Positions 46,364-64,000 of a stretch of DNA of 64,000 bases are shown here, in pieces; position 1 is the stretch's first letter, and every line of letters begins with the position of its first letter. The notes under the pieces were generated by a model. It saw only the letters and a program-made list of their open reading frames with translations, did no database searches and was not told the DNA's origin. The position numbers and the translations under genes were made by a program. This stretch comes from Nocardiopsis potens DSM 45234 (GTDB lineage Bacteria > Actinomycetota > Actinomycetes > Streptosporangiales > Streptosporangiaceae): positions 57,751 through 121,750 of the forward strand of contig NZ_ANBB01000042.1 of the NCBI RefSeq assembly GCF_000341105.1. Direction: 5' to 3'.

Positions 46364-46386
46364 AGCCGACCGTGCAGAATATTCGC

Positions 46387-47316
46387 ATGATCGATCCGAA
46401 GCTCAAGGTGCTGCAGATGGTCGCCCGCTACGGGACGGTGACCGCCGCGGCCAAGGCGATGAACTACACCCCTTCGGCCGTCTCCTACCAGCTCCGCCAG
46501 CTGGCCGAGGAGCTCGGCGTGGAGCTGCTGGCCCAATCGGGGCGAGGGATCGCGCTGACCGGCGCCGCCCGCATCGTGCTGCGCCACACCGAGGCGCTCA
46601 GCGCCCAGGCCGAGCGGGCCCGCGCCGAACTCGCCTCGGCGACCGGGGAGCCCGCCGGCCCGTTCACCCTGTGCGGCTTCTCCACCGCCGCCACCCACCT
46701 GCTGCCCCCGGCGGCGGCCGCCCTGCGCGAGCGCTACCCGCAGGTGCGCATCCGGGTGATGGAGGCCGAACCGGCGCCCTGCTTCGACCTGCTGCTCTCC
46801 GGCGAGGCCGACCTCGCCCTGGTGATCAGCACCGCCGAGACGCCCTCCAGCGCAGACGAGCGCTTCGACCAGCGGCCCCTGCTCGACGACCCGCTGGACC
46901 TGGTGGTGCCGGACGGGCACCGGCTGACCGGGCTGGACCGGGTGACGCTGGCCGACGCCGCGGACGAGCCGTGGATCGTCGGCCGTGCCGGCGGCGCCTA
47001 CCACCAGCTGGTCACGACCGCCTGCATGAGCGCGGGCTTCACCCCCGACATCGCCCACTGGGCCGACGAGTGGGACACCGGGACGGCCCTGGTCGCGCTG
47101 GGGTTCGGCATCATCCTGGTGCCCCGGCTCGCCCGCATCAACGACTGGGCGGTGGTGCGCATCCCGCTGCACGGCGAACCCGCCCCGGCCCGGCGCATCG
47201 TCGCCGCCACCCGGATGGGCCGCCGCGACCACCCGGTGGTCGCGGCGGCCCTGGACGCGATCGGCTCCACCGCGGCCACCCTCCAGGCGCCCCGCCGGCG
47301 GGCACCGGGGGAGTGA
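46387..47316 (+). CDS. LysR-family transcriptional regulator
   Basis: A 309-residue regulator. The N-terminal winged helix reads VARYGTVTAAAKAMNYTPSA and then VSYQLRQLAEELGVELLAQS. Residues about 90-300 form the periplasmic-binding-protein-like effector domain. It is divergent from the MFS pump and probably activates it in response to an exported compound. The ATG at 46387 is chosen by family N-terminus; an earlier in-frame ATG at 46372 is the alternative. Confidence 0.9.
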   Translation: MIDPKLKVLQMVARYGTVTAAAKAMNYTPSAVSYQLRQLAEELGVELLAQSGRGIALTGAARIVLRHTEALSAQAERARAELASATGEPAGPFTLCGFSTAATHLLPPAAAALRERYPQVRIRVMEAEPAPCFDLLLSGEADLALVISTAETPSSADERFDQRPLLDDPLDLVVPDGHRLTGLDRVTLADAADEPWIVGRAGGAYHQLVTTACMSAGFTPDIAHWADEWDTGTALVALGFGIILVPRLARINDWAVVRIPLHGEPAPARRIVAATRMGRRDHPVVAAALDAIGSTAATLQAPRRRAPGE

Positions 47317-47370: not shown

Positions 47371-48414
47371 TCAGAAGGCGTCGGGGTAGAGCTCCCGGGC
47401 GATCTGCTCCACGGCGTCGATGTTGCCGAGGGTGCCGGGGAACAGGTCGCTCTTGGGGACGGCGATGAGGCGGCCGTCCCGCACGGCGGCCACGTCCGGG
47501 AAGGTCTCCTCGAGGTAGTCCCGGGTGTGCTTCTCGGACTCGGGGCCGGAGACGCTGAAGACGATGGCCTCGGGGTCGCGGTCGATGATCTCCTCGGGGG
47601 TGATCTCGGCGGCGAAGAAGTCGGCGAACTCGGGGGCGTCCGGGTCGAAGACGTTCTCCCCGCCGGCGGTGGCGATGATGTCCGCCTCGATCCCGGCGCC
47701 GATCGCCTGGAGCGTGTTCCCGTCGACGTAGACCTGGGCGACCGCGGGGCGGGCCGCGTCGCCGATGGCGGCCTCGACGGCGGCCAGCCGCTCCTCGGCG
47801 TCCTGGGAGAGCTCCTCTGCGGTGTCGGGGGTGCGCAGGATCGCGCCGAGGTTGTCGATGTCGGTCAGCACGTCGGTGACCTCCGCGCCGTTGCGGCGGT
47901 CCAGGCAGCCGCCGGTCGCGACGTAGGCCTGGGCGCCGTTCTCCTTCAGCTGCTCGATGCTGGCGAAGCCCTGCTCCGCGGTGAACTCGTACTCGGTGGG
48001 GGAGACGACGAGGTCGGGGGCGGCGGCGAGGAGGTCCTCGCGGGCCGGCGGGGCGTCGGTGCTGAGCACCGGGACGTCGGCGGCCCGGTCGGCGATGTCG
48101 TCCGGCAGCGGGGAGACGTCCGTCTGGGCCTGGCCGACCAGGGAGTCCAGGGCGCCGAGGCGGACGAGCAGCTCGGTCTGCGAGGGCATCATGCCGACGA
48201 CGCCGGTCGGCGCCGCGTCGAAGGAGAGCTCGCGGCCGCAGTTGGTGACCGACACCGCCTCGCCCGAGCCGCCGTCCGCGGCCGGGGCGCCGCTGACCCC
48301 CGTCCCGCATGCGGACAGCGCCAGCGGCAGGGCCGCGGCGGCGGCGAGCACGGGCGACGGGCGCCGGCGGCGCGGGCGGCCCGACGGGGCGGAGGGGGAC
48401 GGAACGCAGGTCAT
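47371..48414 (-). CDS. metal-chelate ABC transporter substrate-binding lipoprotein
   Basis: A 347-residue lipoprotein of the FepB/BtuF (periplasmic binding protein 2) type. After a basic start, the signal segment ends at the lipobox LALSACG (Cys near residue 36). The body has VVGMMPSQTELLVRLGALDS, then SDLFPGTLGNIDAVEQIARE at the end, as in binders of ferric siderophores, haem or cobalamin. It is the last gene of the leftward importer operon and overlaps the ATPase stop (ATGA). Co-transcription with genes under the 53540 operator suggests it binds the metal complex of the divergent operon's peptide product. Confidence 0.9.
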   Translation of the reverse strand: MTCVPSPSAPSGRPRRRRPSPVLAAAAALPLALSACGTGVSGAPAADGGSGEAVSVTNCGRELSFDAAPTGVVGMMPSQTELLVRLGALDSLVGQAQTDVSPLPDDIADRAADVPVLSTDAPPAREDLLAAAPDLVVSPTEYEFTAEQGFASIEQLKENGAQAYVATGGCLDRRNGAEVTDVLTDIDNLGAILRTPDTAEELSQDAEERLAAVEAAIGDAARPAVAQVYVDGNTLQAIGAGIEADIIATAGGENVFDPDAPEFADFFAAEITPEEIIDRDPEAIVFSVSGPESEKHTRDYLEETFPDVAAVRDGRLIAVPKSDLFPGTLGNIDAVEQIARELYPDAF

Positions 48415-49241
48415 GGGAGGGTGATTCCTTCCGGGGACGGGGTGGCCGGGGCCGCGTCGTCGCGGCGCCGGGTGGACGTGCGGGAATCGAAGATGAAGTG
48501 CCGCCGGCCCGAGTCCGGGTGGGCGACCGCGGTGGAGTCGACGTCGAACGCCGACCGGATCAGGCCGGTGGTCAGGACCTCCTCCGGCGCCCCCAGCGCG
48601 GCCAGCCGCCCGCCGGCGAGGACGCCCACGGCGTCGCAGGAGCGCGCGGCGAGGTTCAGGTCGTGCAGGGCGACGACCGCGGTCCGGCCGGCGGTCCGGA
48701 CCAGGTCGAGGAGTTCCAGCTGGTGGGCGATGTCGAGGTGGTTGGTGGGCTCGTCGAGGACGAGGACGGGCGTCTCCTGGGCCAGCGCGCGGGCGAAGAG
48801 CACCCGCTGCCGCTCGCCCCCCGACAGCGCGGAGAAGGAGCGGTGCGCCAGGTCCGCGGCGCCGACGCGGCCCAGGGCCTCCATCGCGACGGCGGTGTCC
48901 CGGCCGGTGTCGCGGCCGAAGCCGTGCCCGTGCGGGATGCGCCCGAGGAGGACCATGTCGAGGACGGGGATCTCGAACTCCTCGCTGTGCTCCTGGGTCA
49001 TGACCGCCACCCGCAGGGCGGTCTCCCGGCGGCTCAGCGACGCGAGGTCGGTGCCGTCCAGGAGCACCCGCCCCGACGACGGGGACGCGATGCCCGACAC
49101 GGCGCGGAGCAGGGTGGACTTGCCGCTGCCGTTGGGCCCCAGCAGCCCGAGGACCGTGCCGGAGGGGACCGAGACGCTCACGCCGGACACGACGGGGCGG
49201 CCGCCCCGGTGCGCGCCGAGGTCCTCGATGTCGATCCTCAT
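48411..49241 (-). CDS. metal-chelate ABC importer ATP-binding protein
   Basis: A 276-residue ATPase of the FepC/BtuD group. Walker A GPNGSGKSTLL, signature SALSGGERQRV, Walker B PVLVLDEPTNHLD and the switch His in ALHDLNLAARSCD are all intact. It energises uptake by the FecCD permease next to it. The ATG at 49241 overlaps the permease stop. The last 25 residues are Arg/Pro-rich and variable. Confidence 0.93.
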   Translation of the reverse strand: MRIDIEDLGAHRGGRPVVSGVSVSVPSGTVLGLLGPNGSGKSTLLRAVSGIASPSSGRVLLDGTDLASLSRRETALRVAVMTQEHSEEFEIPVLDMVLLGRIPHGHGFGRDTGRDTAVAMEALGRVGAADLAHRSFSALSGGERQRVLFARALAQETPVLVLDEPTNHLDIAHQLELLDLVRTAGRTAVVALHDLNLAARSCDAVGVLAGGRLAALGAPEEVLTTGLIRSAFDVDSTAVAHPDSGRRHFIFDSRTSTRRRDDAAPATPSPEGITLP

Positions 49242-50413
49242 CGGCCCGCCCCCGCGCCCTCGGCCCGGTCGCGCCGCAGCAGCCACAGGAAGAACGGCGC
49301 TCCGACCAGGGCGGTCAGCACGCCGAGCGGGATCTCCGTCGGCTCCGCGAGCGTCCGGGCGAGCAGGTCGGAGCCGGCCAGGAACACCGCCCCGGCGAGC
49401 ACCGCGACCGGCAGCATCTTCCGGTGGTCGGAGCCGACGATGATCCGCGCGACGTGCGGGACGACCAGGCCGACGAACCCGATCCCGCCGGAGACGGCGA
49501 CGACCGCGCCGGTCAGCAGCGCCGAGGCGGCCAGGACGGTGGTCCGCAGCCGGTTCACGTTCACGCCCAGGGAGGCCGCCGCGTCGTCGCCGACGAGGAG
49601 TGCGTTGAGGGCGCGGGCGCGGAGGGCGGCGAACACCCCGACGGCGGCCAGCGCGGCGGCCGGGAGGGCGAGGTGGCCCATGGTGGCGGCCGAGACCGAG
49701 CCGAGCAGGAAGAACATGATGCCGAACACGTTCTGCGCGTCGGTGGTGATGGTGAGGTAGCTGGTCACCGCGCTGAACAGGGAGCCGAGCGCGACGCCGG
49801 CCAGGATGAGCCGCTGCGGGGCGATCCGTCCGTTCTTGCGGGCCAGCAGGTACACGGCGCCGGTGGCCAGGAGCGCGCCGGCGAAGGCGGAGGCGCCGAT
49901 GCCGAGGGAGCCGATCCCGATCCCCAGGACGATGTAGGACACCGCGCCCGCCCCCGCCCCGGCCGAGACGCCGAGGATGTAGGGCTCGGCGAGCGAGTTG
50001 TGCACCACCGCCTGGATCAGCGCGCCCGCCAGGGCGAGCGCGGCGCCGGTCAGGGCGGCCAGGAGGGCGCGGGGCAGCCGGAACTGCCACACCGCGTTGT
50101 CCTGCACCGGGGTCAGCGACCCGTCCGACATCCACGGCATCCCGGGCACCAGGTGCCCGGTGATGATCCGGAAGGCGTCCGCCGGCGCCACCTCGATGGT
50201 GCCGATGCTGGTGGAGAGCAGGAGGAGGGCCGCCAGCGCGAGCGCCAGGGCCGGGACGAGCACGCGGACCGCGAGCGCGCCCCGCCGGCGCGGCGCGGCG
50301 GGGGCGGGCGGGGCGGCGGAGGCGGGCGGGGCGGCGCCGCGCTCCGGTCCCGGTACTGCGGGGGAGCGGCCCGGGGGTCTCGCCCCGGGGTGTCCGCTGG
50401 TCGTTTCGGTCAT
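49238..50413 (-). CDS. FecCD-family metal-chelate ABC permease
   Basis: A 391-residue membrane protein with about ten helices. The family core is clear: RLPRALLAALTGAALALAGA, then NSLAEPYILGVSAGAGAGAV, LILAGVALGSLFSAVTSYL and GGIGFVGLVVPHVARIIVG. A single permease gene implies a homodimer like BtuC. The N-terminal 45 residues are a Pro/Ala-rich cytoplasmic tail. It lies 4 bases after the S9 peptidase gene and overlaps the ATPase gene. Confidence 0.93.
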   Translation of the reverse strand: MTETTSGHPGARPPGRSPAVPGPERGAAPPASAAPPAPAAPRRRGALAVRVLVPALALALAALLLLSTSIGTIEVAPADAFRIITGHLVPGMPWMSDGSLTPVQDNAVWQFRLPRALLAALTGAALALAGALIQAVVHNSLAEPYILGVSAGAGAGAVSYIVLGIGIGSLGIGASAFAGALLATGAVYLLARKNGRIAPQRLILAGVALGSLFSAVTSYLTITTDAQNVFGIMFFLLGSVSAATMGHLALPAAALAAVGVFAALRARALNALLVGDDAAASLGVNVNRLRTTVLAASALLTGAVVAVSGGIGFVGLVVPHVARIIVGSDHRKMLPVAVLAGAVFLAGSDLLARTLAEPTEIPLGVLTALVGAPFFLWLLRRDRAEGAGAGR

Positions 50414-50417
50414 CGGG

Positions 50418-52313
50418 TCAGGAGCCCTTTCCTGCGGTCGAAGGGGTGTTCTGCGCCGGCCGCGTCGCGGCGGCGGCGAAGCCGAGGACGGCGGCCCCCA
50501 ACCGGTGGAGGCCGTCGAGGTGGTTGCGGCCGTGCCCGGTCCCGGGCGCGCACCACAGGTCCGCGTCGCCGCCGGCCCGGCGCAGCTCCTCGACCACGGC
50601 CCGGGTGTCCGCGGCGGCCACCCGGGAGTCCTCCTCCAGGACGATGCCGAGGAAGCGGGGGAGGGCGGTGCCGGGGGCGATGCCCCGGGCGAGGTGCAGC
50701 GGCGAGATCCGGCGGAGGCGCTCGGCCGCCTCGGGGCCCTCCTGGGCGCCGAACTCGGCGGTCCAGTGCCTGCCGAGCGGGTGCGAGGCGAGGCCGAGCA
50801 GGTCGAGCGGGGCGGCGGTGCTGACGACGCCGGCGCACAGGTCCGGGGATCGGAGCGCGCAGGCGGCCGCGACCACGCCGCCGTGCGAGGCGCCGGCCAG
50901 GACGAGCAGGTCCGGCCGGGTGAGCCCGGCGCGGACGAGCCCGCGCGCGGCGGCGGCCAGGTCGGCGATGCCGCGCTCCTTGGCGGCGCCCCGGCCGGCC
51001 TCGCGCCATGCCGCGCCGTGCTCGCCTCCGCCCCGGATCTGCGCGATCGCGTACCGGCCGCCGTGCCCGACCCACGCCGGGACGGTCGGCTCGAACGCGG
51101 CCAGGCTCGGCACGCCGAAGCCGCCGTAGCAGGTCAGGATGAGCGGCGCGGGCCCGGTCGCACCCGTCGGCGAGGTGACCACCACGGGCACATCCGCCCC
51201 GTCGCCGGCGGGGAAGGAGTGCCGCTCGGTCCGGGCGGAGCAGGTCGGCGCGTCTGCCGGGGAGGCGGCGGCCACGGGTGCCTCGGCCGCGTCGCCGGCG
51301 GGGAAGGCGTGCCGCTCGGTCCGGGCGGGGGCGGCCGGTGCGGCCGCGCCGGGCCGTCCGTCCGGCGGCCCGCCGCCGGGGGGACCGCCGCCCGGGCCGC
51401 CGCTCAGCAGCTCCTCGGCCGCGACCACTCGCGGAGGGAGGACCGGACCCTCGATGAGGACGTGGAACCGGCCGGCGTCGGCGCCCACCCCGGTCGCGAC
51501 GGCCGGGGCGCCCCGGTAGGCCACCGGGCGGTCCTCGGCCACCGCGCCCCGGACGATGCGGACCAGGACGCTGCGGCCCGCGCGCACGCCGGCGGCGAGG
51601 ACCTCCTCGCCGTGCGCGGCGAAGGAGGTGATCCGGAGGGAGGGGTCCTGCCGGGACCAGAGCCCGGCGCCGCTGCGGGCGTCCACGGCGTGCAGGCCCG
51701 TCCCGCAGCCGACCAGGGCACCGCCGTCCCCGTAGGCCGCGACCCGGGTGACGGCGGGGAACGCGCCGAGCCCGGTGCCGGTGGCCCGGTCGGTGAGGAC
51801 GGTGGGCGCGCCGGGGCGGCTCTCCGCGAGCACCCCCCGCGCCCCGCCGGGGAAGTACCGCAGCCGCACGCCGGGCGGCGCGGCGGAGGTGGTGAGCCGC
51901 CCGGTGGCCGCGTCGAGGGCGGCGATCCGGCCCGACCCGCTCGCGGCGAGCTCGACGCGGGCGGAGTCGCCGCTCCAGAGCAGGGGGTCGTAGCGGCAGC
52001 GGACCTCCGGGTAGGTGCGCAGGGCGCCGGTGGCGGTGTCCAGGAGCGCCAGGGCGGCGTCCTCGTCCGCGCGCTCGGCCAGCTGGAGGGCGATGCGGCG
52101 CCCGTCCGGGGAGGGGGCCATGAGCAGGATGTGCCCGTCGGGTTCCAGCACCGGCGCGCCGTCGCCGGCCCGGTAGACGCCCTGCCGGGGGCGGTCCGGG
52201 AGCCTGCCGAGCGCGAAGCCGCGGTCGGGGAGGCCGGGGCGGCCGTGCCGCTCCCACCGGGCCAGCGCGGCGTCGAGGGAGGGGGCGGTCATCGGGAAAG
52301 GGGTGTCCGCCAT
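50418..52313 (-). CDS. S9-family (prolyl-oligopeptidase-like) serine peptidase
   Basis: A 631-residue serine peptidase. An N-terminal beta-propeller (about 1-320) gates a C-terminal alpha/beta-hydrolase domain (about 385-620) with TCYGGFG, RGGGEHGAAWREAGRG, the nucleophile Ser in AGASHGGVVAA, Asp in LEEDSRVAA and His in GTGHGRNH. Such enzymes cleave short peptides, often after Pro. No signal peptide, so it works inside the cell. A 90-base tandem duplication repeats the ARTERHxFPAGD linker just before the catalytic domain. Placed between a propeller gene and a metal-chelate importer, it may cleave the imported peptide to free the metal. Confidence 0.87.
   Translation of the reverse strand: MADTPFPMTAPSLDAALARWERHGRPGLPDRGFALGRLPDRPRQGVYRAGDGAPVLEPDGHILLMAPSPDGRRIALQLAERADEDAALALLDTATGALRTYPEVRCRYDPLLWSGDSARVELAASGSGRIAALDAATGRLTTSAAPPGVRLRYFPGGARGVLAESRPGAPTVLTDRATGTGLGAFPAVTRVAAYGDGGALVGCGTGLHAVDARSGAGLWSRQDPSLRITSFAAHGEEVLAAGVRAGRSVLVRIVRGAVAEDRPVAYRGAPAVATGVGADAGRFHVLIEGPVLPPRVVAAEELLSGGPGGGPPGGGPPDGRPGAAAPAAPARTERHAFPAGDAAEAPVAAASPADAPTCSARTERHSFPAGDGADVPVVVTSPTGATGPAPLILTCYGGFGVPSLAAFEPTVPAWVGHGGRYAIAQIRGGGEHGAAWREAGRGAAKERGIADLAAAARGLVRAGLTRPDLLVLAGASHGGVVAAACALRSPDLCAGVVSTAAPLDLLGLASHPLGRHWTAEFGAQEGPEAAERLRRISPLHLARGIAPGTALPRFLGIVLEEDSRVAAADTRAVVEELRRAGGDADLWCAPGTGHGRNHLDGLHRLGAAVLGFAAAATRPAQNTPSTAGKGS
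51201..51328 (-). repeat. 90-bp tandem duplication inside the S9 peptidase gene
   Basis: Bases 51201-51238 recur at 51291-51328 with one visible difference, a 90-base (30-codon) step. The repeat duplicates the segment leading into the catalytic domain. Confidence 0.8.
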
Positions 52314-52316
52314 CGC

Positions 52317-53519
52317 CTACCGCCCGACCGGGTCGAAGCCGCCGCCGTGCCAGTGCAGGTGGCCGCCTTCGTCGAGCGGGCCGGGCATGCCGACGGTGTC
52401 GAACCGGTCCTCGCCGACCAGGTGGAGTTCGGCGTCGCCGCCGCGGGTCACCGCGGCGGTGGTGCCGGAGGGGTCGAGGGTGACGGCCCGGCGCTGCGCG
52501 GGGGCGCCGCCCACCGGGTCCCAGGGCAGGTGTCCGGCGGCCGGCGGGTGCGACATCGCGGGCAGCGGCCTCCGGTACAGCGTGCGCAGCCGCGGCCCGG
52601 TGCGCTCGACGAGGGTCAGCTCGTCCCCGTCGGGGTGGATCGTGGCCACCGCGGCCCTGCCCCCGCCGAGCGCGAACCGGAACGCCAGCCCCGGCGGCAG
52701 CTCCAGGGAGCGCGCGCCGCCGGTGGACAGGTCGACGTCGACCAGGTGATTGGTCCATTCGGTCCACCCGGCGGGGGAGGCCGGGCCGCCGCGCACCACG
52801 CCCACGGCGCGGCCGGTGGCCGGGTCGAAGCGCAGGTAGAAGGCGCGCCCGGGGGCCGGCCAGGGGACGGTGCCGATCATCCGGGGCGTGCCGCGGTCGA
52901 CGACGAACCGCTCCAGGCCCCGGCCGGTCGCGGTCGCGGCGATACCGGTCCGCTGGTCGACGACGTCGCCGTGGCCGTCGTCGGCGATCCCGGCGGCGGT
53001 GCCGGCGAGCGCGGGCACGTGGGCGCCGGCGTCGAGGCAGCGGGCGAGGGGGATCGCCTCGACGGCGCCGGGCTCGCGGTGGCGGAGCACGGCCGCCGGT
53101 TCGCCGTCGGCCTGGTCCGGGACGACCAGCGCCCCGGGCTCCCCGGTCCGCGCGCGGAACCGCACGGATTCGCCGGCCTGCAGGTCGACGACGGTGACGA
53201 CGTCGCTCCACGGGGCCGGGTTGGCGCCGAGGCCGGTCGTCACCAGCACGTGGCGCCCCGAGGCGTCGCAGGCGAGGTGCTCGCCGGGGATCGCCACGGG
53301 CACGCGCCGCTCGCCGCCGGGCCCGAGCGCCACCAGCGCCCCGGCCCGGTCGTCGATGAACGCCCACTCCGCGCCGGTCGCGCCGTCGCGGGGGAGGGCC
53401 AGGACGCCGGCGTGCTCGGCGAGGACGCCGGTGCCGCGCGCCCGGACGGCGCCGCCGCCGTCGAGGGTGTAGGTGCGGCCCGCACGGTAGTCGGCCACGA
53501 AGAGCTGCTCCACGGTCAT
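52317..53519 (-). CDS. beta-propeller protein of the importer operon
   Basis: A 400-residue protein that looks like a six- to seven-bladed propeller, with repeated pieces such as LFVADYRAGRTYTLDGGGAV, AEWAFIDDRAGALVALGPGG and VVTVVDLQAGESVRFRARTG. No signal peptide and no catalytic motif that I recognise. It is the first gene of the leftward operon, four bases before the S9 peptidase, so the two may work together. The start ATG 53519 lies 7 bases after a -10 element, so the message begins essentially at the ATG and is leaderless. Function is otherwise unknown. Confidence 0.8.
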   Translation of the reverse strand: MTVEQLFVADYRAGRTYTLDGGGAVRARGTGVLAEHAGVLALPRDGATGAEWAFIDDRAGALVALGPGGERRVPVAIPGEHLACDASGRHVLVTTGLGANPAPWSDVVTVVDLQAGESVRFRARTGEPGALVVPDQADGEPAAVLRHREPGAVEAIPLARCLDAGAHVPALAGTAAGIADDGHGDVVDQRTGIAATATGRGLERFVVDRGTPRMIGTVPWPAPGRAFYLRFDPATGRAVGVVRGGPASPAGWTEWTNHLVDVDLSTGGARSLELPPGLAFRFALGGGRAAVATIHPDGDELTLVERTGPRLRTLYRRPLPAMSHPPAAGHLPWDPVGGAPAQRRAVTLDPSGTTAAVTRGGDAELHLVGEDRFDTVGMPGPLDEGGHLHWHGGGFDPVGR

Positions 53520-53526
53520 GGGGAGG

Positions 53527-53562
53527 ACGCTATTGGAAATGAAAACCGTTATCAAGTAGAGT
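53527..53562. promoter_or_regulatory. divergent promoters with a Fur-superfamily (Zur-like) operator
   Basis: Leftward: -35 TTGATA (53550-53555), 17-bp spacer, -10 TAGCGT (53527-53532). Rightward: -35 TTGGAA (53533-53538), 18-bp spacer, -10 TAGAGT (53557-53562). Both spacers contain TGAAAACCGTTATCA (53540-53554), a 7-1-7 dyad matching at six of seven positions. It fits the actinomycete Zur box (TGAAAATGATTTTCA in Streptomyces) better than the IdeR/DmdR iron box. One bound repressor would block both operons. Confidence 0.75.
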
Positions 53563-53636
53563 GCCCGATGCTCCCCTGGGAGCACGCGCCGGCCGCCCCG
53601 TGCCGGCACGTACTGCCGTGAAGAGAGGACATCGCC

Positions 53637-53828
53637 ATGGACCAGCGGGTCACCGCCGAGATCGAGGACGCCGAGCAGCTGGCGCACCTGTCGGCCTCGC
53701 ACTCCAACGCCCTGGTCGAGAACCCCTTCGACGACCAGCGGGTCACCGCCGAGATCGAGGACGCCGAGCAGCTGGCGCACCTGTCGGCCTCGCACTCCAA
53801 CGCCCTGGTCGAGAACCCCTTCGACTGA
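53637..53828 (+). CDS. RiPP precursor peptide with duplicated 31-residue unit
   Basis: A 63-residue peptide: Met followed by two identical copies of a 31-residue unit that runs from DQRVTAEIEDAEQ to LVENPFD. Each unit contains SASHSNALVENPFD with three Ser, two His (one in AHLS), Asn, Glu and Asp, and no Cys or Thr near the end. It precedes TOMM-type maturation genes, so Ser residues could become oxazolines/oxazoles and His and acidic residues could bind metal. AGAGAGGAC lies before the ATG. The two units are also identical in DNA, so the duplication is recent or kept by gene conversion. Which part is leader and which core is not clear. Confidence 0.85.
   Translation: MDQRVTAEIEDAEQLAHLSASHSNALVENPFDDQRVTAEIEDAEQLAHLSASHSNALVENPFD
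53640..53825 (+). repeat. perfect 93-bp tandem duplication
   Basis: Copy 1 is 53640-53732 and copy 2 is 53733-53825, with no difference seen by eye. The period is 31 codons, so the frame is kept. It covers the whole precursor peptide apart from Met and stop. Confidence 0.95.
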
Positions 53829-53922
53829 CCGACACCGCCTGAGCGCGCCGCACGCGGCGCCGACGGTCGGAACCGATCCCCGGTCGGGCGGCCCCGCGCC
53901 GCCCGGCCGGGCCGTTCGAGAG

Positions 53923-54759
53923 GTGAAGATGGCCCCGGAACACCCCATCGCCCCCGTCCCGGGAAGCGGCGCCGACGTGCTCCTCCAGCACGACGGGACC
54001 GGATTCGTGCGCACGGCCTCGGGCCGCTTCCTCCGGCTGCGGAACCCGCCGCCCGGCCTCACCGCGGCCCTGTCCGGCGCCCCGCCCGCCGACGGCGGGA
54101 CGGCCGGCGCCTACGCCGAGCGGCTCGCCGCCGAGACCGCCGAGCGCGAGGACGGCGACGCCGAGCGCCGCTGGCCGGCCGCCCGGCGGAACACCGCCCT
54201 GGTCGGAGCGGGCGCACCGGCCGACGCACTGGCCGAGGCGCTGGCCGGGTGGGGCGCCGCCCCCGCGCGCTTCCCCGGCGCCGCCGAGCTGATCGCCGCC
54301 GGCCGGGAGCGGCCCTGGGACCTCGTGATCGGCTACGCCGACTCGCCCGGCGAGCGCGCGCACTGGGACCTGCTCGACGCGCTGCCCGGGCGCGGCACCG
54401 CCTGGCTGCGCGGCTACCGGGAGGGCGAGGTCTGCTACGTCGACCCGATCGCCGTCTCCCCCGGAGACCCCACCGCGGAGCAGGTCCGCCGGCGCCGCCT
54501 GGCGGCGAGCCCCGCGCCCCGCGGACTCGACGCCTGGCAGCGCGCCTCCGCCGCCCCCGCCCGGGAGCTGCCCCGCGCGGCGCGCACCCTGCTGGAGGCC
54601 CGGATCCTCACCGTCGCCCTCGCCTGGGCGCGGCGGGCGGGCGCCCTGGACCGGTACCGCGGCACGCTGTGGCGGCTCGCCGCCGCCACCGGGGAGATCG
54701 GCGAGCACCCGGTGCTGGCCTACGACCCCCCGCCGCCCCTCGCGGACCGGGCGTCATGA
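53923..54759 (+). CDS. TOMM E1-like (ocin-ThiF-like) leader-binding partner protein
   Basis: A 278-residue protein that resembles the E1-like partner (C protein) of azoline-forming cyclodehydratases. It starts with a winged-helix-like region containing VLLQHDGTGFVRTASGRFLR, which could be the RiPP recognition element. The middle is a degenerate Rossmann part, NTALVGAGAPADALAEAL and WDLVIGYADSPGERAHWDLL, then TAWLRGYREGEVCYVDPIAV, the usual place of the partner's Pro-flanked loop. Cys ligands of the typical zinc tetrad are missing. GAGAGGTGAAG lies before the start, taken here at the codon giving MKMAPEHP or a few codons on. It would bind the precursor and pass it to the YcaO enzyme. Confidence 0.68.
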   Translation: MKMAPEHPIAPVPGSGADVLLQHDGTGFVRTASGRFLRLRNPPPGLTAALSGAPPADGGTAGAYAERLAAETAEREDGDAERRWPAARRNTALVGAGAPADALAEALAGWGAAPARFPGAAELIAAGRERPWDLVIGYADSPGERAHWDLLDALPGRGTAWLRGYREGEVCYVDPIAVSPGDPTAEQVRRRRLAASPAPRGLDAWQRASAAPARELPRAARTLLEARILTVALAWARRAGALDRYRGTLWRLAAATGEIGEHPVLAYDPPPPLADRAS

Positions 54760-55751
54760 CGCCGGACCCCGGACGCGACCACCGCGGCACGGCCCCCGAC
54801 GGCACCGTGCTGCGCGGGCGGTGGTGGGAGAGCGCGCACCCCCGGGCCGTCGTGCTGATCCGCACCCCCTACGGCGCCCACCTGCACGCCTCCACCGCCC
54901 GCTCGTGGAACGAGCGCGGATACCACTGCCTGGTGCAGGACGTGCGCGGCCGGTACCGGTCGCAGGGGAGCTGGGCCCCCTACGCCCGCGAGCAGCAGGA
55001 CGGCGGCGCCCTCCTGGAGCAGGTGGCCGCCGAGCACCCCGGCCTCCCCGTGGTCCTCTTCGGCGCCTCCTACGCCGCCCACACCGCCCTGGAGGCCGCC
55101 CGCGCCGCCGCACCGGGCGCCGTCGCGGCGGTCATCGCCCTGGTCCCCGCCCTCGGCCTGGCCGAGACCGCCTGGAACGCCGACGGCGAACCGCAGATCC
55201 GGCACCGGATCGGCTGGTGGCACCAGCACGGGCGGACCGGCCGCCCCGCGCCCCCGCTGCCCCCCGCCGAACTGGACCGGCGGACCGCGCACGCCCGCGA
55301 GCGCGGCGTCCTGGAGGCCGCCGAGGACTGGGACTGGCCGCCGGAGGCGCGCGCGGGCTGGCGGCGGCTGTGGACCTCCCGCCGCACCGACCTGCGCACC
55401 CGCTACCGCGGCGCCACCGCACCGCTGCTGGTGGTCAGCGGCGACCACGACTTCTTCCACGCCGACGCCCGGCGCCTCGCCCGCGAATGGAGCGCCGCGA
55501 GCCACTTCGCCGGCGGCCCCTGGGGGCACCGCCTCGCCGGCGGCGTCACCGACCCGGACCGGCGGGCCCGCATCGCCGCCGCCGGCGGGCTCTCCCGCGT
55601 CATCGACCCGTGGCTGGCCGCGAACGGGCTGCCCGGCACCCCGGCGGAGTGGACCCGCCTCCTCGCGCCCGGGCCCGGGACGCGCACCCGCACCCGCTCC
55701 CTCCTCGGCCCCGAATCCGCGGCCTGGCGCCACGAAAGGACCCCCTCATGA
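54756..55751 (+). CDS. CocE/NonD-family (X-Pro dipeptidyl-peptidase-like) hydrolase
   Basis: A 331-residue alpha/beta hydrolase of the CocE/NonD group. It has LIRTPYGAHLHASTARSWNE and then GYHCLVQDVRGRYRSQGSW, the Ser nucleophile in FGASYAAHTALEAA, Asp in VVSGDHDFFHADA and a candidate His in GGPWGHRLAGG. Such enzymes hydrolyse esters or remove dipeptides from a peptide N-terminus. Within a TOMM-type operon a leader-trimming role is plausible but unproven. ATG 54756 overlaps the previous stop and the gene's own stop overlaps the YcaO start. Confidence 0.82.
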   Translation: MTPDPGRDHRGTAPDGTVLRGRWWESAHPRAVVLIRTPYGAHLHASTARSWNERGYHCLVQDVRGRYRSQGSWAPYAREQQDGGALLEQVAAEHPGLPVVLFGASYAAHTALEAARAAAPGAVAAVIALVPALGLAETAWNADGEPQIRHRIGWWHQHGRTGRPAPPLPPAELDRRTAHARERGVLEAAEDWDWPPEARAGWRRLWTSRRTDLRTRYRGATAPLLVVSGDHDFFHADARRLAREWSAASHFAGGPWGHRLAGGVTDPDRRARIAAAGGLSRVIDPWLAANGLPGTPAEWTRLLAPGPGTRTRTRSLLGPESAAWRHERTPS

Positions 55752-57190
55752 CCCTGACCGGAACCGCCGCCCCCGCAGAGCGGCAGGACGGCGGCGAACC
55801 CTCCGGCGCACCGCCCGCCGGGGAGCCCCGGCTGCCCGTGGAGGCGCTGGTCGACCCCGAATGCGGGATCATCCGCTCCGTCCGGGAGGTGCCGAAGCCG
55901 GCCGGCGCGCCGCCGTCCTACCTGGCGATGACCGCGGCCGTCGCCGACGCCCGCCGGCTCGGCGAGTGGCCCGCCGACCGCGTCTCGCTGGGCACCTCCT
56001 TCGGCGACCCCGCCCAGGCGAGGATCGCCGCGATCGCCGAGGGGGTCGAGCGCTACTGCGGCAACTGGCTCCCCGCCGAACTCCCCGAGGACGGACTGCG
56101 CGTCGCCACGCGCGCCGAACTCGCCGCCGCCGGCGCCGACCCCATCGGACTGGAGGACCTGCCCGCCTTCGCCTCCTGGCAGTACGCCCGCGACGGGTTC
56201 CCCTACCGGCGCCCGACCGAGGACACCCCGGCCCTGTGGGCGCGCTGCACCGGCCTCGACGGCGCCCGGACCTGGGTGCCCGCATCGCTGGTCCACCTCA
56301 ACTGGCGCCAGTCGCGCTTCCGCCGCCTGCCCCGCATCCACCACCTGAACTACGCGGGCATCGCCACCGGTCAGGGGGCCGACGACGCCCGGGACCGCGG
56401 CGTCCTGGAGATCATCGAGCGCGACGCCCTCGAACTCTGGTGGCACCTGGACGGACCCGCCTTCGGCATCGACCCGGCGAGCGTCCCCGGCCTCGAAGAG
56501 GACCTCCGCGGCGGCTCCCTCCGCGTCTCCCTGGTCGCCATGCCCTCGGAGTTCGCCCCCGCCGTCGCGGCGCTCGTGCACGACGAGGAGCGCGGCCTGT
56601 ACGCGGCGGGCTTCTCCGCCTCCTGCGACCCGGTCCGGGCCGCCCGCAAGGCGGTCCTGGAGGCCGTCCACACCTGGGTCTACACCCAGGGGTGCACCGC
56701 CGCCGACGGGTGGGTGTTCCGCGCCGTCGAGCACGGCCTGATGGCCCGCGGCCTCTACCTGGACTTCCGCGAGGACGCCTCCTACCGCGACGCCGCCGGC
56801 GAGCAGTGCGAGAACATCGTCGACCTGGGCGCCCACGTCCAGCTCTGGCTCGACCCGCGCGTCCACGGGGAGGCCCGGCGGTTCACCGAGCCGGCCCTGG
56901 GGACCCGGCCGATCACCGCCCTGGAACCGGTGGACATGGGCGAGGTCTACCGGCGCCTGGCCCGCCGCGGCCACCGGATCCTCACCCGCGACCTCACCAC
57001 CTCCGACGTCCGCCGCACACCGCTGCGCGTGGTGCGGACCCTCATCACCGGGCTCGTGCCCAACGCCCCCGCCGCCTTCGCCTACCTCGGCATGCCCCGG
57101 TTCCGGGAGGCCGCCCTGGAGCGCGGGTGGCGCACGGAGTGGACCGGAGGCCCCTCCGACTTCACCCTCGTCCCGCCCCCGCACATGTAA
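55748..57190 (+). CDS. YcaO-domain TOMM cyclodehydratase
   Basis: A 480-residue YcaO enzyme, which uses ATP to phosphorylate a peptide backbone amide and close Ser/Thr/Cys side chains into azolines. ATP/Mg-binding motifs are visible as AAIAEGVERYCGNWLPAEL (about 95-115) and RGVLEIIERDALELWWHLDG (about 218-237), then ARKAVLEAVHTWVYTQGC. The protein ends FTLVPPPHM, a Pro-rich C-terminus in the place of the PxPxP signature of azoline-forming YcaOs. Its operon mates (precursor, E1-like partner, SagB-type dehydrogenase) make a TOMM/LAP role clear. ATG 55748 overlaps the hydrolase stop. Confidence 0.93.
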   Translation: MTLTGTAAPAERQDGGEPSGAPPAGEPRLPVEALVDPECGIIRSVREVPKPAGAPPSYLAMTAAVADARRLGEWPADRVSLGTSFGDPAQARIAAIAEGVERYCGNWLPAELPEDGLRVATRAELAAAGADPIGLEDLPAFASWQYARDGFPYRRPTEDTPALWARCTGLDGARTWVPASLVHLNWRQSRFRRLPRIHHLNYAGIATGQGADDARDRGVLEIIERDALELWWHLDGPAFGIDPASVPGLEEDLRGGSLRVSLVAMPSEFAPAVAALVHDEERGLYAAGFSASCDPVRAARKAVLEAVHTWVYTQGCTAADGWVFRAVEHGLMARGLYLDFREDASYRDAAGEQCENIVDLGAHVQLWLDPRVHGEARRFTEPALGTRPITALEPVDMGEVYRRLARRGHRILTRDLTTSDVRRTPLRVVRTLITGLVPNAPAAFAYLGMPRFREAALERGWRTEWTGGPSDFTLVPPPHM

Positions 57191-57199
57191 GGCCCCTCC

Positions 57200-58288
57200 T
57201 TGCTCTCCGCAGACCACCCGGCCGCCCCGGTCCGCCGCGCGCACCGCCGCCCCGACCCGGCCGGCCTCCCCGCCGCCCTGGCCCGCGCGCTCACCGCCGA
57301 ACCCCCCGGCCCGGCGCTCCCGCCGGGGCCGCGGGCCAACCGGTGGCGCGCCCTCGGCGCCGCCCGCACGGCCGCCCCCGACCGCGAGCGGGACCTGCTC
57401 ACCGGGCTGTGGTCCGGCGACGGGTACCACCGCCTGCCCGACGGGACCGCCACCGGCGTCCGCCGGCGCCCGGTGCCCTCCGCCGGCGGCGCCTACCCGG
57501 TCCGGACCCACCTGGTCGCCGGCCCCGGCGGCGCTCTGGAACAGGGGCGCTACGTCTACGACCACGAGCAGGGCGCGCTGCTCCGCCGCGACGGGGCCGC
57601 CGAGCGGGCCGCGGGCTGGGACACCGGCGCCGCCGGCCCGCCGGAGGCCGGGACCTACCTGGTCCTGACCGTGCAGCCGGGCCGCAGCTTCGGCCGCTAC
57701 CGGCACCGGGCCTGGCCGCTGTGGATCGCCGACACCGCCTACGCGCTCACCGCCGCGGAGTTCCTGGCCGGCGCGGACCCCGCCCGGACCCGGCTCGGCC
57801 CGGGCGCGCCGCTGCGCAGGCTGCTCGGCGTGCCCCGCGCCGCCGAGCACGGCCGCTGGCTCCGGCACGGCCTCGCCCCGGAGATCCCGCTCGCCGCCGT
57901 CGAACTGCCGGCGGCGTGGGCGCCGGACCCCGAGCGCCGCGCCGCCCTCGCCGCCCGCCGGTCGCCGCCGATCGGCGAGTTCACCGCCGCCGCCCGGACC
58001 CGGCCGCCCGCCCCCGGGGCCGCGCACGCCGCGGCCGCGTCCGGGCAGGCGTGGGTCCTGGGGGCCCGCCGCCTGGAGGCGTGGACCGTCGCGGCGGACG
58101 CCCCGCCCGCCGCCGTCGCCGCCGAACTGTGGCGGGCCCACCGGGCCGCGGCCGCCCTCTGCTACGCCGGCGCCCTGTCGCGGCGGTGGCGCTGCCGCCC
58201 GGTGTCCGGCTTCACCGCGGCCCGCGGCCGCTGGACCCTGCACGCCCTGGCGATGCTGCCCGGCGCGGCGGAGCGGAGCACGCCATGA
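57200..58288 (+). CDS. SagB-type FMN-dependent dehydrogenase
   Basis: A 362-residue nitroreductase-fold protein like SagB, which oxidises azolines to azoles. The FMN-binding pattern is visible as VRRRPVPSAGGAYPVRTHLV (about 89-108), with the SAGGxYP signature, and later PLWIADTAYALTAAEFLAGA. The second nitroreductase half is recognisable but divergent. TTG at 57200 is the only upstream start in frame, with a poor ribosome site; translation may be coupled to the YcaO gene 9 bases away. Its stop overlaps the ABC exporter start. Confidence 0.87.
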   Translation: MLSADHPAAPVRRAHRRPDPAGLPAALARALTAEPPGPALPPGPRANRWRALGAARTAAPDRERDLLTGLWSGDGYHRLPDGTATGVRRRPVPSAGGAYPVRTHLVAGPGGALEQGRYVYDHEQGALLRRDGAAERAAGWDTGAAGPPEAGTYLVLTVQPGRSFGRYRHRAWPLWIADTAYALTAAEFLAGADPARTRLGPGAPLRRLLGVPRAAEHGRWLRHGLAPEIPLAAVELPAAWAPDPERRAALAARRSPPIGEFTAAARTRPPAPGAAHAAAASGQAWVLGARRLEAWTVAADAPPAAVAAELWRAHRAAAALCYAGALSRRWRCRPVSGFTAARGRWTLHALAMLPGAAERSTP

Positions 58289-59991
58289 TGATCGTCCGCG
58301 AACTCTGGCGGGAGGCGGCCCGGTTCCCCGCGGCGCTGGCCTGGAGCACCGCGCTGCTGGTGCTGGTCTTCTCCACCCACCTCGGCCAGGCCGCCGCCAT
58401 CGCCTGGTCGATGTCGGCGGCGCTGCGCGGGCACCCCGGGGACGTGCTCGCCGGGCTGGCGCTGATCGTCGCGATCGCGCTGGCGCGGATGGCGCTCTCC
58501 CTGGCCCAGGCCTCCGCCGCCGCCGGGCTCGGCGGCCGCGTCCGCCGGGCCCTCCGCCGCCGCGCGATGCGGGCCGCGCTGACCCCCGAGCGGCTGCACG
58601 ACACCGCCGCCCGGGACGGGGCGCTGCGGGCCGGCCTGGGCGACGGCATCGACGGGACCGACGCCTACGTCTCGAAGTACGTCCCCGCCGTCGCGCAGGT
58701 GCTGATCGCCTGCCCGGCCGTGGGGGCCCTGCTGGTGCCCCTCTCCCCGGCCGCGGCGGCGGCCGTCGCCGCGGGGCTGGTGCTGGCGCTGCTGGGCCCC
58801 ATGGCCTGGAAGCGGATGGCGGCCCGGCGCGGACTCGACCACTGGGACGACTACGAGGGCCTCGGCGCCGACCTGCTCGAATCCCTGCGCGGCATGGCCG
58901 CCCTGCGCACCCTCGGCGACGTGCCCGGGACCCGGCGGCGGCTGGACGCCCGGTCCGAGGCGCTGCGCCGCGCCACCGAGCGCGTCATGCGGGCCTCCCT
59001 GGCCGAGACCGCCGTGACCGACCTCGCCGTCCAGGGCGGCATCGCCGCCGCGGCGATCGCGGCCCTCGGCCACGCCGTCACCGGGCAGGCCCCCGCCGTC
59101 GAGGTCTACCTGGTCCTCCTGCTCGCCTCCGAGGCGTTCCGCCCGATCCGCGACCTCTCCCGGCACTGGCACTCCGGGTTCCTCGGCACCACCGCCGTCC
59201 CCGGCCTCGCCCGGATCGGCGCCTTCGACCCCGAGCCCGGCCCGGAGCAGAGCGACCCCGGCCCGGAGCAGGGCGCCCCGGAGCAGAACGCCCCCGCGCC
59301 CGGCCCCGGGGGCCCCGCGCCGCGCCCGGGGCCCGAGGGCGGCCGCGCGGAGCTGCTGCACGTCTCGGACCTGGGCTTCCGCTACCCCGGCGCCCGAGAC
59401 GACGTGCTCCGCGGCCTCACCCTGACCGCCCGGCGCGGATCGCTCACCGCGATCGTCGGCGAGTCCGGCGCGGGCAAGTCCACCCTCTTCGACCTCCTGC
59501 TCGGCCTCCTCACCCCCGGCACCGGCCGCATCACGCTCGACGGCCGGCCGGTGCGCCCAGACGACATCGCGGTGGTCTCCCAGCGCCCGGTGCTCTTCGC
59601 TGGAACCGTCCGGGACAACCTCACCGCCGCCGACGCCGCCGAGGAGCCCGACATCACCGCCGCGTGCCGGGCGGCCGGGATCCTCGACGAGGTCCTGGGC
59701 CTTCCGCGCGGGCTCGACACCGAGGTCGCCGAGGCGGGCGCCAACCTGTCCGGCGGACAGCGCCAGCGCCTCGCCCTGGCCCGGGCCCTCCTCGCGCGGC
59801 GCCCGGTCCTCCTCGTCGACGAGCCGACCAGCGCCCTGGACGCGGACCGCGCCGCAGAAGTGGTCCGGACGCTCCACCGCGTCGCCCGCGACCGCATCGT
59901 CATCATGGTCAGCCACCGCCCCGAAACGCTCACCGGCGTCCCCGACGTGCTGCGCCTGGGCGCCGGGCGGCTGGAGAAGAGCGCTCCGTGA
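58285..59991 (+). CDS. ABC exporter half-transporter A
   Basis: A 568-residue membrane-plus-ATPase half-transporter. Six membrane helices fill residues 1-300. A Pro/Gly/Glu-rich linker with PGPEQSDPGPEQGAPEQNAP follows at about 313-335. The ATPase has Walker A VGESGAGKSTLF, signature NLSGGQRQRLALARALL, Walker B LLVDEPTSALD and the H-loop VSHRPET. There is no C39 peptidase domain, so it exports but does not trim the peptide. GTGA overlap with the next half-transporter suggests a heterodimer like CydDC. Confidence 0.92.
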   Translation: MMIVRELWREAARFPAALAWSTALLVLVFSTHLGQAAAIAWSMSAALRGHPGDVLAGLALIVAIALARMALSLAQASAAAGLGGRVRRALRRRAMRAALTPERLHDTAARDGALRAGLGDGIDGTDAYVSKYVPAVAQVLIACPAVGALLVPLSPAAAAAVAAGLVLALLGPMAWKRMAARRGLDHWDDYEGLGADLLESLRGMAALRTLGDVPGTRRRLDARSEALRRATERVMRASLAETAVTDLAVQGGIAAAAIAALGHAVTGQAPAVEVYLVLLLASEAFRPIRDLSRHWHSGFLGTTAVPGLARIGAFDPEPGPEQSDPGPEQGAPEQNAPAPGPGGPAPRPGPEGGRAELLHVSDLGFRYPGARDDVLRGLTLTARRGSLTAIVGESGAGKSTLFDLLLGLLTPGTGRITLDGRPVRPDDIAVVSQRPVLFAGTVRDNLTAADAAEEPDITAACRAAGILDEVLGLPRGLDTEVAEAGANLSGGQRQRLALARALLARRPVLLVDEPTSALDADRAAEVVRTLHRVARDRIVIMVSHRPETLTGVPDVLRLGAGRLEKSAP

Positions 59992-61679
59992 ACACCGCCT
60001 CCGCACTCCGGGCCCTCCGCGCCCTGCTGCCGGCCCTGCGCCCCGAACGGCGCGGGATGCTCTGGAGCTACCTGGTCGGCACCGCCAGCGCCCTCGCCCT
60101 GGCCGCCCTCACCGTGCTCACCGCGTGGGCGGTCGGCCACGCCGTCGCCGAGCGGACGCCGCCCGGACCGGCCTGGTGGGCCGCGGTCATCGGCCTCGTC
60201 CTGCTCCGCACCGTCCTGACCTGGCGGGAGATGGACGTCTCCCACGCCCTGGCCTACCGGGTCCTGGCCCGGCTCCGGATGGCGCTGTTCGACTCCTACG
60301 CGCGCAGCGTCCCCGGGCGCCGCCGCGAGCACTCCGGGCGCGCGGCCGCCGTCGCCATGGGCGACATCGAGGAGCTGGAGTTCTTCTACGCCCACACCAT
60401 CGCCCAGGTCGGCGCCTCGGCCACCGTCTTCCTCGCCGCCGCCGCCACCGCGGGCGCCCTCCTCCCGGAGGCCGCGGCCGTCATGCTCGCCGGCGGCGCG
60501 GCCGTCGCGACGACCGCGCTGTACTGGGCGCGGACGGCGCGGCGGCTGGGCGAGCAGGAGCAGCGCGAGCGGTCGGCGCTGTCCGCCCGGATCACCGACG
60601 CGCTCGGCGCCCTCCGCGAAGTGCTCGCCTACCGGCTCGCCCCCCGCATCATCGCCGACACCGACGCCGCCACCGGGCGCGCGGCCGCGCTCACCCGCCG
60701 CCGGGAGCTGCTGGAGCAGCTGGTGGCCTCGGTCCGGGAGCTCATCGTCACCGCCGCGGTCATCGGCGTCATCGCCGCCGCCGCAGGGGTGCTCGCCGAC
60801 GGTGCCGGCGGCGCCGGCGCAGGACCCTCCCCGGCGGTCCTGCCCGCCCTGGTGGCGCTGGCCGTCACCGGGGTCGCGGCGATCACCGAGGCGACCACCG
60901 TCCTCACCCGGCTGCACCCGCTCGTCGCCGCCGCCGACCGGGTCGCCGCCGGCATCGGCCGCCCCCCGGCGGTGGCCGCCCCGCGCGCGCCGCGGCGGCT
61001 GCCCGACGGGCCGCTCGGCCTCCGGTTCCGGGACGTCTCCTTCGCCTACGAGGGCCGGCCGCCGGCGCTCGCCTCCTGGTCCGCCGAGGTCGCCCCCGGC
61101 GAGCACGCCGGCCTGGCCGGCCCCTCCGGGGCCGGCAAGAGCACCGTGATCGCGCTCGCCGCCCGCCTCTGGGACCCCGCCTCCGGCACCGTCGAACTGG
61201 TCGCCGCCGACGGCGCGGGCGTCCCCCTCACCGAGATCGACGACGCGGCCCTGCGCAGCGCGGTCGCCCTGGTCGACCAGGAGGCGACGCTGTTCCACGG
61301 CACCGTCCGGGACAACCTCCTCCGCGGCGCCGGACCGCGCCCCGACGCCGAACTGGCCGCCGTGCTCGAACACGTCGGCGCCGCCGGCTGGATCGGCCTC
61401 GACGACGACCTCGGCGAGGACGGGGTGCGCCTCTCCGGCGGCCAGCGGGCGCGCCTCTGCCTGGCCCGCGCCCTCGTCCGCCGCCCCCGCGTGCTCCTCG
61501 TCGACGAGGTGACCGCCAGCCTCGACCCGGCCACCGAGCGGGCGGTCTCCGACGCCATCGCCGGCTTCGGCGGCACCGTGCTCATCTCCTCCCACCGGAG
61601 CGAGACCCTCGCACGCTGCGGACACGTCATCGACATCACCGCCCCCGCCGACCAGGCCCGGGCCCCGGGCCTCCGCTGA
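59988..61679 (+). CDS. ABC exporter half-transporter B
   Basis: A 563-residue half-transporter with six helices (about 25-290) and an ATPase domain. Walker A is AGPSGAGKSTVIALAAR, the signature VRLSGGQRARLCLARAL and Walker B VLLVDEVTASLD, with Val in place of the usual Pro and no other loss. The H-loop is ISSHRSET. With half-transporter A it would form the exporter for the modified peptide. GTG 59988 overlaps the previous stop. It ends the rightward operon before a 14-bp terminator. Confidence 0.92.
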   Translation: MNTASALRALRALLPALRPERRGMLWSYLVGTASALALAALTVLTAWAVGHAVAERTPPGPAWWAAVIGLVLLRTVLTWREMDVSHALAYRVLARLRMALFDSYARSVPGRRREHSGRAAAVAMGDIEELEFFYAHTIAQVGASATVFLAAAATAGALLPEAAAVMLAGGAAVATTALYWARTARRLGEQEQRERSALSARITDALGALREVLAYRLAPRIIADTDAATGRAAALTRRRELLEQLVASVRELIVTAAVIGVIAAAAGVLADGAGGAGAGPSPAVLPALVALAVTGVAAITEATTVLTRLHPLVAAADRVAAGIGRPPAVAAPRAPRRLPDGPLGLRFRDVSFAYEGRPPALASWSAEVAPGEHAGLAGPSGAGKSTVIALAARLWDPASGTVELVAADGAGVPLTEIDDAALRSAVALVDQEATLFHGTVRDNLLRGAGPRPDAELAAVLEHVGAAGWIGLDDDLGEDGVRLSGGQRARLCLARALVRRPRVLLVDEVTASLDPATERAVSDAIAGFGGTVLISSHRSETLARCGHVIDITAPADQARAPGLR

Positions 61680-63905: not shown

Positions 63906-64000
63906 GTACTCTCCTTGCTCGTAGGCGATATGGCGATCAGCCGCGCCGGGCCGCCCGGCTCGGCGGAAGCGGCGCACAGCAGAACGCCGGGGAGGCGGGG

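Follow-up and report, generated by a model that had tools for sequence, protein, structure and literature searches.

A Zur-type box shared by the synthesis and import operons of a streptamidine-family gene cluster in Nocardiopsis potens points to a probable role in zinc acquisition

The DNA analyzed here (hereafter designated the window) is a stretch of 64,000 nt from Nocardiopsis potens DSM 45234 (GCF_000341105.1; contig NZ_ANBB01000042.1; locus identifier G000:C42), in which two divergent operons separated by a 117-bp gap make up a gene cluster that, by its sequence, belongs to the streptamidine (ami) family. The rightward operon encodes, in this order, a precursor peptide, an E1-like protein, a CocE hydrolase, a YcaO enzyme, a dehydrogenase, and two ABC exporter halves, and the leftward operon encodes a propeller protein, an S9 peptidase, and a FecCD-type permease with its ATPase and binding protein. 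The genes listed in an initial annotation of this DNA were all found, with unchanged coordinates (Table 1), and the metal-type operator that it had placed between the biosynthesis–export and chelate-import operons proved to be, as judged from its sequence, a Zur (zinc) box, TGAAAACCGTTATCA. The annotation had also regarded the gene set as undescribed; the cluster is, however, a member of the streptamidine family, for which the FecBCDE importer and a metal hypothesis are already published (PMC8442711).

The precursor AmiA matches the streptamidine family NF040714 of NCBIfam, scoring 124 bits where 40 is the cut-off, and is a motif-A precursor with the conserved ALV, and is composed of Met and two identical 31-residue units that arose by an exact 93-bp tandem duplication. 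Each unit contains a predicted core, HLSASH, followed by SNALVENPFD. Of the other streptamidine genes, those for the E1-like AmiB, the hydrolase AmiC, the YcaO enzyme AmiD, the two ABC exporters, and FecBCDE are present here. Pfam scans were made for the locus proteins and NCBIfam scans for the ten other than the permease and the ATPase; no sequence family was matched by AmiB, and a PDB sequence search with its profile returned nothing convincing, but the best Foldseek matches of its model were the heterocyclase 4v1v, the McbBCD complex 6gri, and TruD (4bs9). AmiE showed a weak SagB match below the cut-off (TIGR03605), no Pfam match, and no HY/KY dipeptide, and its gene occupies the same position in related loci. 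In the characterized cluster of Streptomyces albidoflavus J1074, which comprises amiF1–F4 (FecBCDE), amiA–E, amiT1–T2, and amiX, the product is an azole-free HLSATH hexapeptide with an amidine that links the amine of His to the carbonyl of Leu; the family is reported to count more than 230 clusters and to be marked by this rare amidine ring, and its discoverers left the function unassigned while proposing a role in metal import (PMC8442711). The azoles expected in the initial annotation are thus unsupported, since the isolated relative is an azole-free amidine (PMC8442711) and the AmiA precursor contains no Cys. For the amidine form of HLSASH, that is, the core minus water, an [M+H]+ of 633.3103 is predicted, and an m/z of 695.224 for the corresponding zinc form. 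Among 31 distinct precursor units, Ser3 of the core is invariant, the first His is present in 29 and displaced by one position in the other two, and residue 2, whose carbonyl would close the ring, varies among Leu, Ala, Asp, and His. Conservation of HSNALV.NPF is not claimed as a result, because these residues were preset in the unit search pattern.

For scoring of the operator, a Zur matrix was trained on eight sites of the same genome with the ami site left out; these eight were chosen by hand, after the neighbors of 17 had been read, among 42 places that deviate from the pattern at no more than two positions (10 for the reversed-pattern control). With this matrix, TGAAAACCGTTATCA scored 21.8 and was the sole strong Zur-like site in the window, the next best 15-mer reaching 6.6. 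The Zur box of S. coelicolor is likewise a 15-bp palindrome, of the 7-1-7 type (PMC5472717). The pattern TGANAACNGTTNTCA occurs exactly twice in the N. potens genome, namely at the ami locus and upstream of a ZnuA gene. Looser matches lie near genes for L31, L33, L28/S14, CobW, a Fur-family protein (where the site overlaps the predicted start of the open reading frame), and an ABC ATPase, and another lies by ABC ATPase/ABC-3 genes on a stretch that also carries an AztD gene (L202/L025, G000:C100:1-7000). Beyond znuA and rpmG/B, these kinds of genes are Zur targets as well. The znuA and rpmG/B genes themselves are named as such in the literature (PMC5472717). The three other YcaO loci of this genome score at most 6.7, so that the box is not a general companion of YcaO genes.

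By eye, promoters were predicted in both directions at the box, which sits within the 18-nt spacer of the rightward promoter and overlaps the spacer and most of the −35 element of the leftward one. A TAnnGT-like −10 element downstream of the box recurs in most of the related loci displayed (also by eye). Because the ATG lies only 7 nt past the leftward −10 element, the leftward transcript is perhaps leaderless. The two operons are bordered by genes for a LysR regulator (46372-47316) and a BCCT transporter (61809-63977), neither of which has a strong Zur box nearby.

Relatives were retrieved by alignment of AmiD, whereas AmiB alone gave none. The best 80 of 197 relatives by AmiD similarity formed a first set, of which 77 were scored (L091, L132, and L139 were excluded, as the precursor was unreadable on the stretch); J1074 and other S. 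albidoflavus strains are absent from the compared loci, and Streptomyces loci with an HLSATH core (e.g., L119) served as stand-ins. A site scoring at least 12 was present within 150 bp 5′ of the precursor in 74 of the 77 loci, with the best sites at 68–111 bp. Such sites numbered 78 in 11,550 bp of precursor-upstream regions versus 65 in 1,582,622 bp elsewhere, and only 2 of 1,540 shuffled upstream regions reached 12. Moreover, in the 42 loci where AmiX does not adjoin amiA, a box of at least 12 was found around the AmiX start in 41 (11.7 in the other), so that no fewer than 41 of the 65 hits outside the precursor-upstream regions belong to these AmiX boxes; in L133, the sole such locus checked with Pfam, the gene beyond this box encodes a binding protein (PF01497). 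The importer is separate and has its own box in L160, L162, and L163, and L097 has an additional box. The Zur box is thus maintained through three gene arrangements. In a second set, a class sample of 394 genomes that overlaps the first (G362/L089, G330/L090, G192/L102), the precursor was found in 19 genomes, including N. potens itself and G384, whose remnant falls below the family cut-off, and a box of at least 12 lay near it in 15 of them, N. potens counted. Collectively, it is very likely that the streptamidine family is under zinc control.

Control by DtxR/IdeR, examined in the same 77 promoters, was unsupported: the best matches to the DtxR/IdeR consensus covered 8–11 of 19 bases, versus 8–10 in controls, and none was nearly full. 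Matches of at least 10 bases occurred in 50 of the 77 promoters and in 20 of the 77 control windows, an excess expected from AT-richer sequence.

Motif-B relatives (NF040715) occurred in 7 of the 394 genomes. Near their precursors were two clear boxes (19.9 and 17.7), one site of 12.7, and four weaker ones (8.8–11.0), one of these four loci having a 14.8 site farther away. The motif-B precursors (L076–L086) have palindromes shortly upstream; two of these are the clear Zur boxes and the others are GC-rich, GGAAANNNTTTCC. The GC-rich palindrome occurs at 72 places in G088 and G132, and no zinc gene was recognized in the eight loci inspected. Other variation was also seen: one assembly, G081, carries three ami clusters with nearly identical YcaO sequences (L071–L073) and a variant palindrome, TGAGTATCRTTCTCA, at two precursors (L046 and L053), and six Streptomyces loci (L120, L131, L144, L155, L159, and L161) have an extra Zur-like site, TGATAACCGTTTCCA, near 20.2–20.4 kb, about 9–10 kb past the start of the YcaO gene.

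Table 1 Features of the streptamidine-family locus in the window. pLDDT, predicted local distance difference test.
Feature	Position	Strand	Evidence
amiF binding protein, metal-chelate type	47371-48414	-	PF01497 E 3.7e-20
amiF importer ATPase	48411-49241	-	PF00005 E 1.8e-31
amiF FecCD-type permease	49238-50413	-	PF01032 E 6.2e-94
S9 (prolyl oligopeptidase-type) peptidase, GASHG serine motif	50418-52313	-	PF00326 E 6.3e-27
amiX homologue (assigned by position), beta-propeller with no signal peptide evident	52317-53519	-	AlphaFold2 pLDDT 92.9
Predicted leftward promoter: −35 TTGATA (53550-53555), −10 TAGCGT (53527-53532), 17-nt spacer	53527-53555	-	by eye
Predicted rightward promoter: −35 TTGGAA (53533-53538), −10 TAGAGT (53557-53562), 18-nt spacer	53533-53562	+	by eye
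Zur-type box TGAAAACCGTTATCA, common to both operons	53540-53554	.	
amiA precursor, 63 aa, NF040714	53637-53828	+	E 1.5e-36, 124 bits
amiB E1-like protein, predicted to act together with the YcaO enzyme	53929-54759	+	AlphaFold2 pLDDT 92.3, Foldseek
amiC CocE/S15 hydrolase, predicted leader removal	54756-55751	+	PF02129 E 3.4e-19; TIGR00976
amiD YcaO enzyme, C-terminal end PPPHM	55748-57190	+	PF02624 E 7.6e-38; TIGR03604 E 4.4e-58 (under cut-off)
amiE dehydrogenase with weak likeness to SagB, precise start uncertain	57200-58288	+	TIGR03605 E 5.8e-6 (under cut-off)
amiT1 ABC exporter half, CydD-like	58285-59991	+	
amiT2 ABC exporter half, CydC-like	59988-61679	+	

The linkage of the importer to the cluster was examined in 150 genomes of the family, where the precursor was found in 16 and an orthologue of the binding protein (E ≤ 1e-70) in 12, all within the 16; at this threshold, none of the 150 had the importer without the precursor. 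G384, drawn from the class sample and lying outside these 150, has a decayed locus (L075, G384:C1:4432500-4450500) with a precursor remnant containing a stop, fragments of the S9 peptidase and the propeller, and no amiB–E found, while the importer and exporter stretches are stop-free when translated and the box has the top score of all observed, 22.8. This pattern is what a user of the product of others, or a decaying cluster, would look like, and a single case does not discriminate between them.

The propeller AmiX gave no Pfam match at E 0.01 and no NCBIfam match at E 0.1, the AztD model included, and a PDB sequence search with its profile returned nothing convincing. Its model is all-beta and its best structural matches are propellers, the top one being the zinc chaperone AztD, which is a likeness of fold and not of sequence. 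AztD is, like AmiX, a beta-propeller, and aztD is under Zur control in Paracoccus (PMC6689063); AmiX differs in being unmatched by the NCBIfam AztD model and in having neither an evident signal peptide nor profile support.

Because both operons flank a single Zur-type box, synthesis and import are likely co-induced by zinc starvation, and because the shared operator matches the presumed Zur boxes of the same genome, the peptide likely scavenges zinc. We infer that zinc starvation probably switches on synthesis and import together, and that the peptide is exported, binds zinc, and is re-imported. Zinc-bound Zur on the box would repress both promoters. When zinc drops, AmiB and AmiD, the E1-like and YcaO proteins, would close an amidine in the HLSASH core of both precursor units, as judged by analogy with J1074, while AmiC would free the N-terminus and AmiE may take part in ring formation. 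The product would then leave the cell through AmiT1–T2 and come back as the zinc complex by way of the binding protein and FecCD importer; the S9 peptidase would cleave this complex, and the AztD-like AmiX may accept or hand on the zinc. The two imidazoles and the amidine are plausible zinc ligands, and zinc carriage by the product is considered fairly likely. Tentatively, and with distinctly less confidence, the streptamidine family may be a ribosomal zincophore class in many actinobacteria, in which Zur-controlled peptides with an amidine and two His residues are exported, re-imported through FecCD, and opened by the peptidase, releasing zinc to an AztD-like cytosolic AmiX; the isolated hexapeptide would then be a spent and trimmed form, which would explain why it bound no metal.

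Several observations weigh against zinc scavenging. Isolated streptamidine bound none of Fe, Co, Cu, Mg, Mn, Ni, and Zn by liquid chromatography–mass spectrometry and was inactive in the chrome azurol S (CAS) assay, the amiD mutant had a wild-type appearance under metal starvation, and AmiX was termed a putative oxidoreductase and was dispensable for production (PMC8442711). Other zinc importers, such as ZnuABC and AztABCD, may have masked a phenotype of that mutant. AmiE is essential in J1074 although the product is unoxidised (PMC8442711), so that the true product may differ from the hexapeptide. Two positions of TGAAAACCGTTATCA, C and G, depart from the published consensus, which reads t and a there; the znuA site of the same genome departs in the same way. 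Only degenerate upstream sites (6.7–7.6) were found in 3 of the 77 loci, which are related by descent, so that the counts from them are non-independent, and 4 of the 19 class-sample genomes lack a box of at least 12 near the precursor. The alignment of AmiX with AztD gave an hhalign probability of 21% and covered the C-terminal part only, and propellers generally resemble one another. The Streptomyces-type permease is only 32–37% identical, and the importer is therefore not one conserved part.

A variant compatible with zinc scavenging holds that the hexapeptide amidine is a breakdown product formed after re-import, the true exported zincophore being larger, possibly oxidised, and derived from the same precursor. 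The J1074 hexapeptide requires amiE and amiF1–F4 though it is unoxidised and import should be dispensable (PMC8442711), and the S9 peptidase gene lies within the import operon here; set against this, a larger product is unreported from J1074, and a possible pathway compound of m/z 414.69 was confined to some heterologous-host cultures (PMC8442711). We regard this variant as a real possibility, though not as the expected outcome. The relative without zinc binding or a starvation phenotype (PMC8442711) would also suit a Zur-controlled peptide that signals zinc starvation or acts in competition instead of carrying zinc, with the FecCD importer serving recycling or self-sensing, and Zur regulons do include genes that move no zinc, such as those for ribosomal proteins. 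Such a role is rather unlikely, as no antibacterial or antifungal activity was found for the relative (PMC8442711), and as the compared arrangements place a FecCD-type importer under the same box or its own. Moreover, G384 retains the importer and exporter after loss of the biosynthesis genes. The usual cargo of FecCD importers is mostly iron chelates and cobalamin, which would favor a metallophore for a metal other than zinc (iron, copper, cobalt, or nickel), for instance a siderophore-like one. This is improbable, given that the operator is of the Zur type and the relative lacks CAS activity (PMC8442711).

The N. potens cluster thus shares with that of J1074 the motif-A amiA, amiB, amiC, amiD (YcaO), a putative amiE, amiT1–T2, the FecBCDE genes (amiF1–F4), and AmiX, to which the propeller protein corresponds by position (PMC8442711). 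It differs from J1074 in the added S9 peptidase and in its two precursor units with the core HLSASH instead of HLSATH, and from Streptomyces loci in the importer lineage and in its one shared Zur box, HLSATH-core loci such as L119 having two. Zur is unmentioned in the main text of the streptamidine paper (PMC8442711), and a literature search on zincophores, ribosomally synthesized and post-translationally modified peptides, YcaO, and Zur listed no paper that, judging by its title and the start of its abstract, describes a ribosomal zincophore. The gene set itself is already published; what is new is the Zur switch, and so a testable function. Methanobactin is a ribosomal peptide metallophore that is exported and re-imported, but it carries copper and is made by MbnB/MbnC enzymes. 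The MbnB/MbnC families were unmatched here in the Pfam scans of the locus proteins and in the NCBIfam scans of ten of them. The coelibactin cluster of S. coelicolor is, as predicted for the present one, a Zur-repressed candidate for zincophore synthesis in an actinobacterium, whereas its product is termed an enterobactin-type zincophore (PMC5472717) and is non-ribosomal (PMC3430247). The Zur box tells under which condition and for which metal the function of streptamidine should be sought, and, if zinc is indeed the cargo of the product, the peptide would count as a ribosomal zincophore, a zinc-scavenging role previously not demonstrated for this widespread family.

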